Below, in pieces: positions 1,526-6,266 of a stretch of 62,507 bases of DNA. The notes below the pieces were generated by a model. The model was not told the origin of the DNA. It saw nothing but the letters and a program-made list of their open reading frames with translations, and did no database searches. How positions within the stretch are numbered: position 1 is the stretch's first letter; each line of letters starts with the position of its first letter. The stretch is from Promicromonospora umidemergens (GTDB lineage Bacteria; Actinomycetota; Actinomycetes; Actinomycetales; Cellulomonadaceae), in the NCBI RefSeq assembly GCF_024171995.1, contig NZ_JAMTCT010000029.1:1-62507 (forward strand), written 5' to 3'. A program made the position numbers and the translations under genes.

Positions 1526-2032
1526 TCACGCGCCCTCCGCGAACCCCGCCTGTCGCCACACCTCGTACACCGCGATCGACGCCGCGTTCGTCAGGTTGAG
1601 CGACCGCCGCCCGGGCAGCATCGGGATCCGCAGCTCGTCGGTGACGCGCGGGTGGGCGAGCGCCTCCGGCGGCAGCCCCGTGGGCTCCGGGCCGAACAGC
1701 AGCACGTCTCCCGGCTGGTACTCGACGTCGGTGAAGCGCGTGGTCGCACGGGTCGTGAACGCGAAGACGCGTGCTCCCGGCAGGGCGTCGAGCGCCGTGT
1801 CGAGCGACGGGTGCACGTCCATGACGGCGAGGTCGTGGTAGTCGAGGCCCGCACGCTTCAGCTTGGCCTCCGACAGGTCGAAGCCCAGCGGCTCCACCAG
1901 GTGCAGCCGGGCACCGGTGACCGCCGCGAGCCGGATCGCGGACCCGGTGTTACCGGGGATGCGGGGCTCGAAGTAGACGATGTGGGCGAGCGGGAACTCG
2001 GGCAGCGCGGAGGCGTCAGGCTGGTGCGGCAC
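1526..2032 (-). CDS. trmL: tRNA (cytidine/uridine-34-2'-O)-methyltransferase TrmL
   Basis: A 168-residue SPOUT methyltransferase that 2'-O-methylates the wobble base of certain leucine tRNAs using S-adenosylmethionine. The family's three motifs are visible: IPGNTGSAIRLAAVTGA near the N-terminus, LLFGPEPTGLPPE in the middle, and the trefoil-knot segment RIPMLPGRRSLNLTNAASIA near the C-terminus. The open frame continues to 2260, but GTG at 2032 gives the normal family length and has an AGGGAG ribosome site nine bases upstream. The upstream extension shares no family sequence. It is divergent from the trpS leader region. Confidence 0.88.
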   Translation of the reverse strand: MPHQPDASALPEFPLAHIVYFEPRIPGNTGSAIRLAAVTGARLHLVEPLGFDLSEAKLKRAGLDYHDLAVMDVHPSLDTALDALPGARVFAFTTRATTRFTDVEYQPGDVLLFGPEPTGLPPEALAHPRVTDELRIPMLPGRRSLNLTNAASIAVYEVWRQAGFAEGA

Positions 2033-2227
2033 AGCCCCATTCTCCCTGCCCGACGTCGGGGCGCGTGACGCCACGGCGGTCGGCTTGTTCGCTTCCTCGA
2101 TCTCGAACCGCAGCTGAAGGTCGGTGCGCTCGATCATGTCGCGCTGACCGTCGTAGGGACTTGCACCAGCAGCCACGGCCTCGAAGACCTCCTTGCTCGG
2201 CGTCGAAAGGACACATACTCTGAGCGC

Positions 2228-2272
2228 ATGACGCACGGGCTCGACTGGTGGCGGCTGCACTCGCAGCCGTGA
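2228..2272 (+). CDS. Trp-rich leader peptide of trpS (attenuator peptide)
   Basis: A 14-codon frame, MTHGLDWWRLHSQP, with adjacent Trp codons at 2246-2251, ending 23 nt before a strong intrinsic terminator. An AAAGGA element lies about 15 nt before the ATG. Tandem Trp codons immediately ahead of a hairpin and terminator are the hallmark of ribosome-mediated attenuation. Streptomyces auxiliary tryptophanyl-tRNA synthetase genes are known to be controlled this way. When charged tRNA-Trp is scarce the ribosome would stall on the two Trp codons and transcription would continue into trpS. Confidence 0.85.
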   Translation: MTHGLDWWRLHSQP

Positions 2273-2329
2273 CCTGACGCGCCCACCCGCACGGAAGTCC
2301 CGAGCTGCTCGCCGCAGCCCGGGACTTTT
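2252..2329 (+). promoter_or_regulatory. Ribosome-mediated transcription attenuator of trpS
   Basis: Three mutually exclusive structures can be drawn. Hairpin 1:2 is CGGCTGC (2252-2258) with GCAGCCG (2263-2269), starting one base after the Trp codons. The terminator 3:4 is AAGTCCCG-A-GCTGC (2295-2308) with GCAGC-C-CGGGACTT (2314-2327), running into TTTT (2326-2329). The antiterminator 2:3 is GCAGC (2263-2267) with GCTGC (2304-2308). A ribosome stalled on the Trp codons covers segment 1, freeing segment 2 to pair with 3 and break the terminator. Confidence 0.8.
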
Positions 2330-2379
2330 CTGTGCCCGACGCCGTCCGTGGGCAGCTCCCTGACCAAGGAGACACCCAC

Positions 2380-3513
2380 ATGTCCGTCACTATCGCACCC
2401 GAGGCGACCACACCGCCGTCGGCCACTCCCGGCGGGCCGGCCAGCACGACCCGCTCCGCCGCAGCGGCCCGCGAGCGAACCGCCGACCTGGAGCAGCTGA
2501 TCGTCCAGAACCCGGGGGCGTACCGCGTCCTGACCGGGGACCGGCCCACGGGGGCGCTGCACCTGGGCCACCTGCTCGGCACCGTGGCCAATCGCGTGCG
2601 CCTGCAGAACCTCGGCGTCGAGATGTTCCTCATCGTCGCCGACTACCAGGTCATCACCGACCGGGACGACGCAGGGGACCTGCCCGCCACCGTTCGCGAG
2701 GTGCTGCTCGACTATCTCGCCGCAGGGATCGACCCCGAGTGCACCACGATCTTCACGCACTCGGCAGTCCCGGCCCTGAACCAGCTGCTGCTGCCCTTCC
2801 TGTCGCTGGTCACCGTCGCAGAGCTCGAGCGCAACCCCACGGTCAAGGCCGAGTCGGAGGCCGCGGCAGAGCGCGGCGGCCGGGGAACGAGCGGCCTGCT
2901 GTTCACCTACCCGGTGCATCAGGCAGCAGACATCCTGTTCTGTCACGGCAACCTCGTGCCGGTCGGCGAGGACCAGCTGCCGCACCTCGAGGCCACCCGG
3001 ACCGTGGCCCGCCGGTTCAACCAGCGCTACTCAGCCGCGCAGCCGTACTTCCCCGAGCCGGATGCGCTCATCGCACAGTCCCCGACAATCCTGGGCAGCG
3101 ACGGGGGCAAGATGTCGAAGTCACGCGGCAATGCGCTGGAGCTGCGCGCCACCGAGGACGAGACCGTTGCGTTCTTCCGGCGCGCGAAGACCGATGCCGA
3201 CCGTGCGATCACGTACGAACCCGAGCGACGGCCCGAGATCGCCAACCTGCTCCAGATCGGTGCGTACTTCACCGGGACCTCGCCGCAGGCACTCGCCGAC
3301 GAGGTGGGCTCGGCCGGCGCGGGGCGTCTCAAGACGCTGGTCACCGAGGCGGTCACGGAGGGCCTGCGCCCCCTCCGTGCCCGACGCCGGGAGCTCGCCG
3401 CCACCGGTTCTCGCCACCTCGCCGAGGTGCTCGCCCGCGGCAACGCCCATGCGAACGCGATAGCCGACCGCACCCTCGACGACGTCCGCGATCTCATGGG
3501 GATGCGGTACTGA
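2380..3513 (+). CDS. trpS: Tryptophanyl-tRNA synthetase (auxiliary, attenuator-controlled type)
   Basis: A 377-residue class I aminoacyl-tRNA synthetase charging tRNA-Trp in the cytoplasm. The HIGH-type motif is HLGH (61-64) and KMSKS is intact at 244-248. YPVHQAADILF (about 177-187) is the tryptophan-pocket segment. The first 35 residues are a Thr/Ala/Pro-rich extension of low conservation. The ATG at 2380 has AAGGAG eight bases upstream. A Trp-Trp leader peptide and terminator precede it, the arrangement described for the indolmycin-resistant second TrpRS of Streptomyces, so this is probably an inducible second copy rather than the only trpS. Whether it confers antibiotic tolerance cannot be read from the sequence. 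Confidence 0.93.
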   Translation: MSVTIAPEATTPPSATPGGPASTTRSAAAARERTADLEQLIVQNPGAYRVLTGDRPTGALHLGHLLGTVANRVRLQNLGVEMFLIVADYQVITDRDDAGDLPATVREVLLDYLAAGIDPECTTIFTHSAVPALNQLLLPFLSLVTVAELERNPTVKAESEAAAERGGRGTSGLLFTYPVHQAADILFCHGNLVPVGEDQLPHLEATRTVARRFNQRYSAAQPYFPEPDALIAQSPTILGSDGGKMSKSRGNALELRATEDETVAFFRRAKTDADRAITYEPERRPEIANLLQIGAYFTGTSPQALADEVGSAGAGRLKTLVTEAVTEGLRPLRARRRELAATGSRHLAEVLARGNAHANAIADRTLDDVRDLMGMRY

Positions 3514-4244: not shown

Positions 4245-6161
4245 TCACTTGGCCAGACGCTCCCGCAGGGCGTCCAGCTGGGCGCGCAGCGCGGCCGGTG
4301 TGTGGTCGCCGAACCGCGCGAAGAACTCCTCGGTCAGCTCGGCCTCGGCCAGCCACGGCTCGGTGGGGACGTCGAAGAGCGCCGCCAGATCGGCGTCGGA
4401 CACCTCGAGGCCGTCCAGGTTCAGCGTGCCCGGCGCGGGCAGGTTGCCCACCGGGGAGGCCACCGACGTGTCGGTGCGCAGGCCGCGGCCGGCCTCGACC
4501 TGACCGACGATCCACTCGATGACACGCGAGTTCTCGCCGAAGCCCGGCCACAGGAAGCTGCCGTCGTCGCCCTTGCGGAACCAGTTCACCTGGAAGATCT
4601 GCGGGCGCTTCGACTCCTCGATGCCCGCACCGACGTCGAGCCAGTGCGACCAGTGGTCGGCCATGTTGTAGCCGCAGAACGGGAGCATCGCGAAGGGGTC
4701 GCGGCGCAGCTCGCCGAGCGCGCCCTCTGCCGCTGCCGTGCGCTCCGACGAGATCGTCGCGCCCATGAACACGCCGTGCTCCCAGCCGAACGACTGCGCC
4801 ACGAGCGGCACGTTGGTGGCGCGGCGTCCGCCGAAGACGATGGCGTCGACCGGCACGCCGGCCGGGTCCTCCCAGGTGTCCGCGATGGTCGGGCACTGGG
4901 CCGCCGAGACCGTGAAGCGGGAGTTCGGGTGGGCGGCGGGGCGCTCGTCGGCGTCGGCGGGCGTCCAGTCGTTGCCCTGCCAGTCGATGAGGTGCTCCGG
5001 CGCCTCGGGCGTCAGGCCCTCCCACCAGACGTCGCCGTCGTCCGTCAGGGCGACGTTGGTGAAGATGGTGTCGCGGTCGAACGTGGCAACGGCCGTCGGG
5101 TTCGTGTCGATGCCGGTACCCGGCGCCACGCCGAAGAAGCCCGCTTCTGGGTTGATGGCGCGCAGGGCGCCGTCGGGTCCCGGGCGCATCCACACGATGT
5201 CGTCGCCGAGGGTCTCGACCTTCCAGCCCGGGATGGTGGGCTGCAGCATCGCGAGGTTGGTCTTGCCGCAGGCGCTCGGGAAGGCGGCGGCAAGGTGGTA
5301 CTGGCGCTGCTCGGGCGACGTGATGCGGATGAGCAGCATGTGCTCGGCGAGCCAGCCTTCGTCGCGCGCCATCGCCGAGGCGATCCGCAGCGCGAAGCAC
5401 TTCTTGCCCAGCAGGGCGTTGCCGCCGTAGCCGGACCCGTACGACCAGATCTCGCGGCTCTCGGGGAAGTGCACGATGTACTTGGTGTCGTTGCAGGGCC
5501 AGGCGACGTCGGCAGCGCCATCAGCCAGCGGGGCGCCCACGGAGTGCACGGCAGGGACCCACGGCTGCCCCGCGTCGATCAGCTCGAGGATCTCGTCCGA
5601 GACGCGCGTCATGACGTGCATCGAGACGACGACGTACGGCGAGTCGGTGATCTCGATGCCGACCTGTGAGATCGGGCCGCCGACCGGGCCCATCGAGAAC
5701 GGCACCACGTACATGGTGCGGCCCTTCATCGAGCCCTCGAAGACACCTTCCAGCTCGGTGCGCATCTCGGCGGGGGCCGCCCAGTTGTTCGTGGGACCGG
5801 CGTCCTCCTCGGCCTCCGAGCAGATGAAGGTGCGCGACTCGACACGCGCGACGTCGGCGGGATTGGAGCGGGCCAGGTACGAGCCGGGGCGCTTCTCCTG
5901 GTTGAGCTCGACGAGCGTGCCGGCGGCCAGCATCTGGTCGATGAGGCGCTGCTTCTCGTCGGCGGAACCATCGCACCAGACGATCTCGTCCGGCTGCGTG
6001 AGCTCGGCGACACCGGCCACCCAGGCCCGCACGCCGTGCTCTCCCGCGGACGCGGCCTGCGCGGTCGCCTCGGACGAGGTGGTGGAGCCCTGGCCGGCCG
6101 TCAGCTCGGAGACGAGCTCGGCGACGAGCCGGGTACGGCGGGGGTTCGCGAGGACGGACAT
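4245..6161 (-). CDS. pckG: Phosphoenolpyruvate carboxykinase (GTP)
   Basis: A 638-residue cytosolic enzyme converting oxaloacetate and GTP to phosphoenolpyruvate, CO2 and GDP, the first step of gluconeogenesis. The GTP-type P-loop FPSACGKTN is at about 294-302. Other family blocks are visible: [15 protein letters not shown] (about 241-255), GDDIVWMRP, and [12 protein letters not shown]. The N-terminal 30 residues are longer than usual. ATG at 6161 has GGAG six bases upstream; an in-frame ATG at 6179 has no such site. It is divergent from a RamB-like regulator, and in corynebacteria RamB controls acetate and gluconeogenic genes, so local control is plausible. Confidence 0.95.
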
Positions 6162-6266
6162 GTGCGCTCCGATCGTCATGCGGCGAGCCACGGTGGCGGG
6201 CTTGTTTCCACTCTGGTACGTGGATCTTCCCGATTTCCAGCCCACGGGCTGTCAAGAAACGCGGAT

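Follow-up and report, generated by a model that had tools for sequence, protein, structure and literature searches.

The classical attenuators of trp operons, of which E. coli trpL is the example generally recounted, follow the same mechanistic logic as the element described here, and control biosynthesis, whereas that element controls a synthetase. In the actinobacteria, Vecchione and Sello (2010) are said to have placed the gene of an auxiliary, antibiotic-resistant tryptophanyl-tRNA synthetase (TrpRS) of Streptomyces coelicolor under ribosome-mediated attenuation, reportedly by an arrangement in which, likewise, the second TrpRS gene is preceded by a Trp leader peptide with alternative hairpins. 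A study by Korolev et al. (2015, cited in PMC4833913) deals with Trp attenuation in Actinobacteria, and may already list some of the leaders described below. The leader trpL2 of S. lividans is taken here to precede an auxiliary trpS. A comparative analysis (PMC1262725) predicts Trp attenuators before trpS in Streptomyces, including trpS2 of S. avermitilis, and describes trp operon attenuators in Corynebacterium and Streptomyces; the Streptomyces precedent on which the preliminary description of the present locus had drawn, that of Vecchione and Sello, appears to be real. For S. lividans, a further source (PMC8079986) gives the -10 element as TAnnnT, at a mean distance of 6.3 nt from the transcription start, and calls the trpS leader leaderless from RNA-seq; trpL2 is in that respect like the leader predicted below, and differs from it in having one Trp and no U-rich stretch (MMTRTCTQLWRAA). 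A literature search, with most subscription papers outside its scope, returned no description of a trpS attenuator in Promicromonosporaceae.

The window analysed here is a stretch of 62,507 nucleotides from Promicromonospora umidemergens, in which an auxiliary (type II) trpS is preceded by a short open reading frame and a series of inverted repeats (Table 1). This element is, with little doubt, a ribosome-mediated transcription attenuator of the auxiliary TrpRS gene, a reading directly supported by the peptide, the alternative pairings, their conservation and fixed spacing, their dedication to trpS, and the existence of a second TrpRS copy. It belongs to a known mechanism, already known for auxiliary trpS in Streptomyces, and the interpretation given in the preliminary description is supported overall.

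Table 1. Features at and around the trpS leader of the window.
Feature	Position	Strand	Basis or remark
SpoU-type methylase ORF, divergent	1526-2260	-	ORF bounds, start may differ
Weak -35-like TTGCTC, 17 nt 5' of the -10 box	2193..2198	+	read from sequence
-10 box TACTCT, 6 nt 5' of the leader ATG	2216..2221	+	TAnnnT box survey of leaders
Leader peptide ORF, MTHGLDWWRLHSQP and stop	2228..2272	+	UGG UGG at 2246-2251, stop UGA at 2270-2272
Segment 1, CGGCTGC (CGGCUGC), protector 5' arm	2252..2258	+	folding; pairing reaches into second UGG
Segment 2, GCAGCCG plus UGAC	core 2263-2269, extended 2263..2273	+	protector with 1, antiterminator with 3; shares bases with stop codon
Segment 3, GTCCCGAGCTGC (also written GUCCCGAGCUGC)	2297..2308	+	pairs with 2 or 4
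Segment 4, GCAGCCCGGGAC, terminator 3' arm	2314..2325	+	folding
U tract TTTTCTGT, 6 T of 8	2326..2333	+	read after stem
AAGGAG, likely ribosome-binding site of trpS	2366..2371	+	read from sequence
Auxiliary (type II) tryptophanyl-tRNA synthetase, 377 aa	2380..3513	+	TIGR00233, 228.5 bits (cut-off 176.75)
PEP carboxykinase (GTP) ORF	4245-6245	-	ORF

The 6.6 Mb genome contains three matches to PF00579, corresponding to the window enzyme, to a TrpRS identified by TIGR00233 that is 35% identical to it and represents the housekeeping copy (L002), and to a TyrRS recognised by eye (L001). The suggestion in the preliminary description that the attenuated synthetase is a second copy is confirmed by that search; its further suggestion that this copy is stress-induced is a prediction, as is induction by inhibitors of TrpRS. 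The window enzyme is closest to those of Promicromonospora, with P. panici and P. iranensis both at 86%.

The leader encodes, as had been proposed, a peptide with two adjacent Trp codons, and the position of its start relative to a putative promoter element is regular. Among the window and 80 named loci, all 64 tandem-UGG leaders that lie no more than 400 nt from trpS possess a TAnnnT hexamer ending 6 nt (42 leaders) or 7 nt (22 leaders) upstream of the start codon, as compared with 42 of 15,120 control positions (all positions 60-300 nt upstream, start codons or otherwise) that satisfy the same test, the start codon having been chosen, where several lay in frame, for the presence of the box, which favours the result somewhat. 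A Shine-Dalgarno-like string was found before the start of none of these 64 leaders. A generic consensus scan of 2000-2420 returned no promoter, and the -35-like TTGCTC was rejected in the box survey because it matches TTGACA at just 3 of 6 positions. The TAnnnT spacing, taken together with the S. lividans data (PMC8079986), suggests that the leader mRNA is probably leaderless, starting at about 2228, and that it is probably translated from its extreme 5' end.

The preliminary description had also considered the attenuator complete, and the folding of 2228-2340 agrees with that assessment: its energy is -67.0 kcal/mol, as against -43.6 +/- 3.6 kcal/mol in 200 dinucleotide shuffles (z -6.5), none of which was as stable. 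Computed folding yields three mutually exclusive pairings following the peptide. The first, the protector hairpin 1:2 (core -12.6, extended -22.5 kcal/mol, the extended stem pairing through the UGG codons), is present as described, except that it begins 0 bases, rather than one base, past the second UGG. The second, the antiterminator 2:3, likewise exists, and was undersold as a pairing of 5 base pairs: that GCAGC/GCUGC core contributes -4.1 kcal/mol by itself, whereas the entire structure comprises approximately 10 base pairs (the core plus CG/CG and GAC/GUC) and an inner helix, with an energy of -18.0 kcal/mol. The third, 3:4, is a hairpin spanning 2297-2325 (-20.0 kcal/mol for the core to -33.0 extended) that is followed by the U tract, in keeping with the U-tailed terminator originally reported; the generic consensus scan of 2000-2420 detected no terminator, and the stem carries an A.C mismatch. 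When segment 3 was shuffled, 17 of 1000 versions paired with segment 2 as well as the native one did, which is moderately unusual; in the first version of that test the window gave 27 of 300, which is not significant, and the first automatic hairpin test chose wrong hairpins in many loci and produced weak 2:3 statistics. A T-box or other Rfam element was considered as well and rejected, with no family reaching its gathering score in 1900-2700 and three sub-threshold matches only.

The relationship between ribosome position and these pairings was computed as a partition function on RNA ending just before segment 4, with the 5' limit varied to represent the leading edge of the ribosome, whose footprint length is a matter of general knowledge. 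The probability of the 2:3 core is 0.999 with free RNA from 2258, 2260, 2262 or 2263 (a ribosome on either UGG), 0.046 from 2252 (segment 1 exposed), 0.79, 0.56 and 0.35 from 2264, 2265 and 2266, and 0 from 2268, 2270 or 2275 (a ribosome at the UGA); the mutually exclusive pairings are, by computation, placed such that the ribosome could choose between them. In the proposed mechanism, transcription would begin at or beside the leader AUG, and the ribosome would therefore load on a bare 5' end. With ample Trp-tRNA it would proceed to the UGA, directly 3' of segment 2, and mask that segment, so that the 3:4 terminator would form and transcription would end before trpS; an untranslated leader would sequester segment 2 in the 1:2 pairing, with the same outcome. 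When Trp-tRNA is scarce, whether the cell is starved of Trp or its housekeeping TrpRS is inhibited, the ribosome would stall on the UGG codons and cover segment 1 only, allowing 2:3 to pair before segment 4 is made, pre-empting the terminator and permitting transcription of trpS. The TrpRS so produced would restore charging and turn the leader off again. The leader is a candidate sensor of the charging of Trp-tRNA, small in size and defined by its sequence.

The distribution of the element was examined with a covariance model built from 19 leaders and searched in 121 sampled genomes of the family. At E<1e-8 the model matches 43 places in 42 of those genomes (18 of them sequences used in the model, and 25 not), and by coordinate comparison every one of the 43 lies directly upstream of a type II trpS on the same strand; the 68 genomes for which no type II trpS is listed have no such match. 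The remaining five matches are weaker (E 0.001-0.007): two fall in genomes that lack type II trpS, and three lie antisense to true sites. A search of the window alone likewise gives an antisense match to the leader region, over 2292-2398 on the minus strand, at 29.1 bits. The genome to which the window belongs contains a single match at E 0.01 or better under strict filters, and hence no second copy; the model finds no match at housekeeping trpS genes (L002 and L138), and no tandem-UGG ORF with a start codon was found in the 3429 bases of the trpE locus of the same genome (L147).

Type II trpS itself is present, at an identity of 59% or more, in at least 53 of the 121 genomes, a count given as a lower bound since a poor fragment could be missed. 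Some Trp leader accompanies it in 50 of the 53 genomes listed, 42 with the family-type leader and eight with leaders of other types (G099, G013, G107, G056, G057, G020, G102 and G115), and none was found in the remaining three (G035, locus L130; G010, L132; and G052, L137). Among the window and the 80 named loci, a tandem-UGG leader lies near trpS in 64 cases, another seven loci show a leader that contains W but lacks UGG UGG, and in eight no leader was detected (L034, L036, L038, L042, L065, L072, L083 and L073, the last with just 582 nt of upstream sequence); loci with no detected leader, in either set, were retained in the counts. At the other two, L044 and L047, a tandem-UGG leader is separated from trpS by ORFs recognised by eye as transposase-like (L044:1527-2780 and L047:1937-2842), and no longer lies directly before the gene. 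Attenuation of trpS, found in print only for Streptomyces, is extended in this manner to much of one actinobacterial family. Antribacter soli (L007 and L016, with the same leaders as L093 and L114 of G027) carries type II trpS twice, and a separate leader precedes each gene.

Alignment of the leader in relatives shows that the Trp codons and the stems are kept. In all 52 aligned family-type leaders the Trp codons and their spacing are invariant, and the stretch from the first UGG to the bases past the stop is free of gaps. The leader peptide itself might instead be the active agent, through stalling of the nascent chain in the manner of TnaC, where Pro precedes the UGA, or by action in trans. 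The ending QP and stop, found in 51 of the 52 leaders, would suit such a role, and peTrpL of Sinorhizobium is described as a Trp leader peptide that functions in trans (PMC7298713). However, variation is seen at codons 2-6 and in the loop, and the codons that are conserved, L..QP, are those that form the RNA stem; the single exception, L118, ends in QS through a C-to-U substitution by which a G.U pair is retained, and leaders of the Streptomyces-like class end in other residues, such that an active peptide is very improbable.

A quick tree of 117 type II TrpRS sequences and one housekeeping row placed all 52 rows with QP-type leaders on one side of a branch with support of 99, the housekeeping row and L136 having very long branches and unsure placement. 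The Promicromonosporaceae leader form belongs to a single clade and is marked by a distinct stem and by a stop codon placed directly 3' of segment 2. The leaders ending in WWRSS or WWPS before the stop, which precede type II trpS in Streptomyces, Kitasatospora, Actinomadura and Nonomuraea, share with it the TAnnnT hexamer 6-7 nt before the start, the tandem UGG, the 1:2, 2:3 and 3:4 pairings and the gene family; they differ in having stems such as GGCCGUCC/GGACGGCC rather than GGCUGC/GCAGCC, and a stop codon in the 1:2 loop rather than past segment 2. In the tree's long-branched L136 (G037:C13:35035-36127), type II trpS is in two overlapping pieces, representing a frame change that is either real or due to assembly, and its leader is present. 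The locus L021, labelled Sphaerisporangium cinnabarinum ATCC 31213, has a trpS and leader that group inside Cellulosimicrobium, and is possibly mislabelled. Six loci from Actinomadura and Kitasatospora (L041, L061, L063, L066, L069 and L078) have UGG CGG, with a single Trp, and downstream hairpins that look similar.

Within the family, covariation was not found: not one of 22 pairs had both partners altered, and 99.3% of alignment cells pair, a value that column shuffles equal (99.3%), so that pairing in the family could reflect plain sequence conservation. Sliding the register reduced pairing from 99.3% to 25-62%, the sole control favouring that register, in an alignment that was itself fitted to the model. 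An initial alignment (A1) puts segment 4 wrongly in variants shorter by one C, and therefore the model was made from 19 sequences; realignment of 47 sources to this model gave A3, with 46 rows. The lack of covariation is compatible with a sequence constrained by three pairings that compete, though it offers no independent proof of them.

The only covariation-like support comes from comparison with the leaders of Streptomyces and Actinomadura. Stems differ by lineage, being GGCUGC/GCAGCC in the family and GGCCGUCC/GGACGGCC or GGCGCUCC/GGAGCGGCC in Streptomyces, Actinomadura and Nonomuraea. A second hairpin test mis-picked a downstream hairpin in at least L016, L043, L110-L113, L115, L120, L124, L125, L044 and L047, and a swap test therefore used segments defined by class motifs, which were chosen after inspection of the data and covered 87 of 96 leaders (L028, L044, L047, L050, L056, L126, L127, L128 and L134 were dropped). 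Segment 2 pairs with segment 3 of its own class at medians of -13.6, -15.2 and -18.0 kcal/mol, as against -5.8 to -7.5 kcal/mol when segments are swapped between the family class and the Streptomyces-like classes, with overlap in that the swapped range reaches -12.3 and the family class's own range reaches -9.6. Leaders of differing sequence thus preserve the same pairing logic. The two Streptomyces-like subclasses are nearly interchangeable (-14.2 and -15.1). Shuffles at individual loci are moderate, with 50 or fewer of 1000 as good in 65 of the 96 leaders.

The U tract is less uniform than the stems that precede it. In the 8 nt past the stem, 20 of the 52 family-type leaders have 0-2 T, 17 have 3, and just 11 have at least 5, a poverty that extends to many relatives beyond the closest ones of the window and renders intrinsic termination there doubtful. 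In those relatives the same sensing might be coupled to a different downstream step, with stalling controlling Rho access or RNA stability, and Rho was considered for terminator-less cys leaders of Mycobacterium in Seliverstov 2005 (PMC1262725). That alternative appears unlikely, since the hairpin is present throughout the alignment and good U tracts (5-7 T of 8) are found in 9 of 9 cases comprising the window and the eight other listed MTHG-type leaders.

The function of the auxiliary enzyme was approached through its active site and its relatives. Gln occupies the position taken here to be His43 of B. stearothermophilus TrpRS throughout the 117 type II rows, of which 113 were recognised by pattern and 4 were read by eye. 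The assignment is presumed partly from the sequence of the B. stearothermophilus enzyme and partly from alignment with the housekeeping TrpRS of the same genome, which has His there. An exchange of His43 to Asn confers indolmycin resistance, according to PMC4899734, and resistance of the window enzyme to indolmycin is therefore plausible. The enzyme might serve instead to add to charging capacity or to take part in NO-linked chemistry, in the manner of TrpRS II of D. radiodurans, whose structure (1yi8) is its best match in the PDB; a type II enzyme is also the only TrpRS of three relatives, two of them complete genomes in which the leader is present and the third with no leader found. Against such a role stand the Gln at the His43 position, with its bearing on resistance, and the lack of any PF02898 match in the genome (2 of 14 control genomes were positive), by which a partnership with NO synthase was rejected, and this alternative is rather unlikely. 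Inhibitor tolerance is the more probable role.

The relatives in question are three of the 53 listed type II genomes (G010, G075 and G096), in which the housekeeping copy is absent: each has one type II match and one further PF00579 gene with a TyrRS-like score, at a completeness of 99-100%. Two of these, G075 (L124) and G096 (L125), retain the leader, with 1 T in the 8 nt past the stem, and a rule that an attenuated TrpRS is a spare copy accordingly has exceptions, because the sole TrpRS is attenuated in both; an essential synthetase would there be under the control of its own tRNA charging. No leader was found in the third, G010 (L132), where the likely trpS start lies, by eye, 6 nt past a TAnnnT box. 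Belief and doubt are evenly matched for the broader proposal that the leaders of Promicromonosporaceae constitute a distinct, single-clade class of leaderless Trp attenuator reserved for type II TrpRS, that the housekeeping enzyme was replaced with the leader kept in at least two complete genomes (G075 and G096), and that the sole copy of G010 is expressed, with no leader found, from a trpS mRNA that itself looks leaderless. Together these genomes offer a natural series, from a spare copy with a leader, through a sole copy with a leader, to a sole copy without one, in which the fate of an induced auxiliary enzyme turned sole enzyme may be followed.
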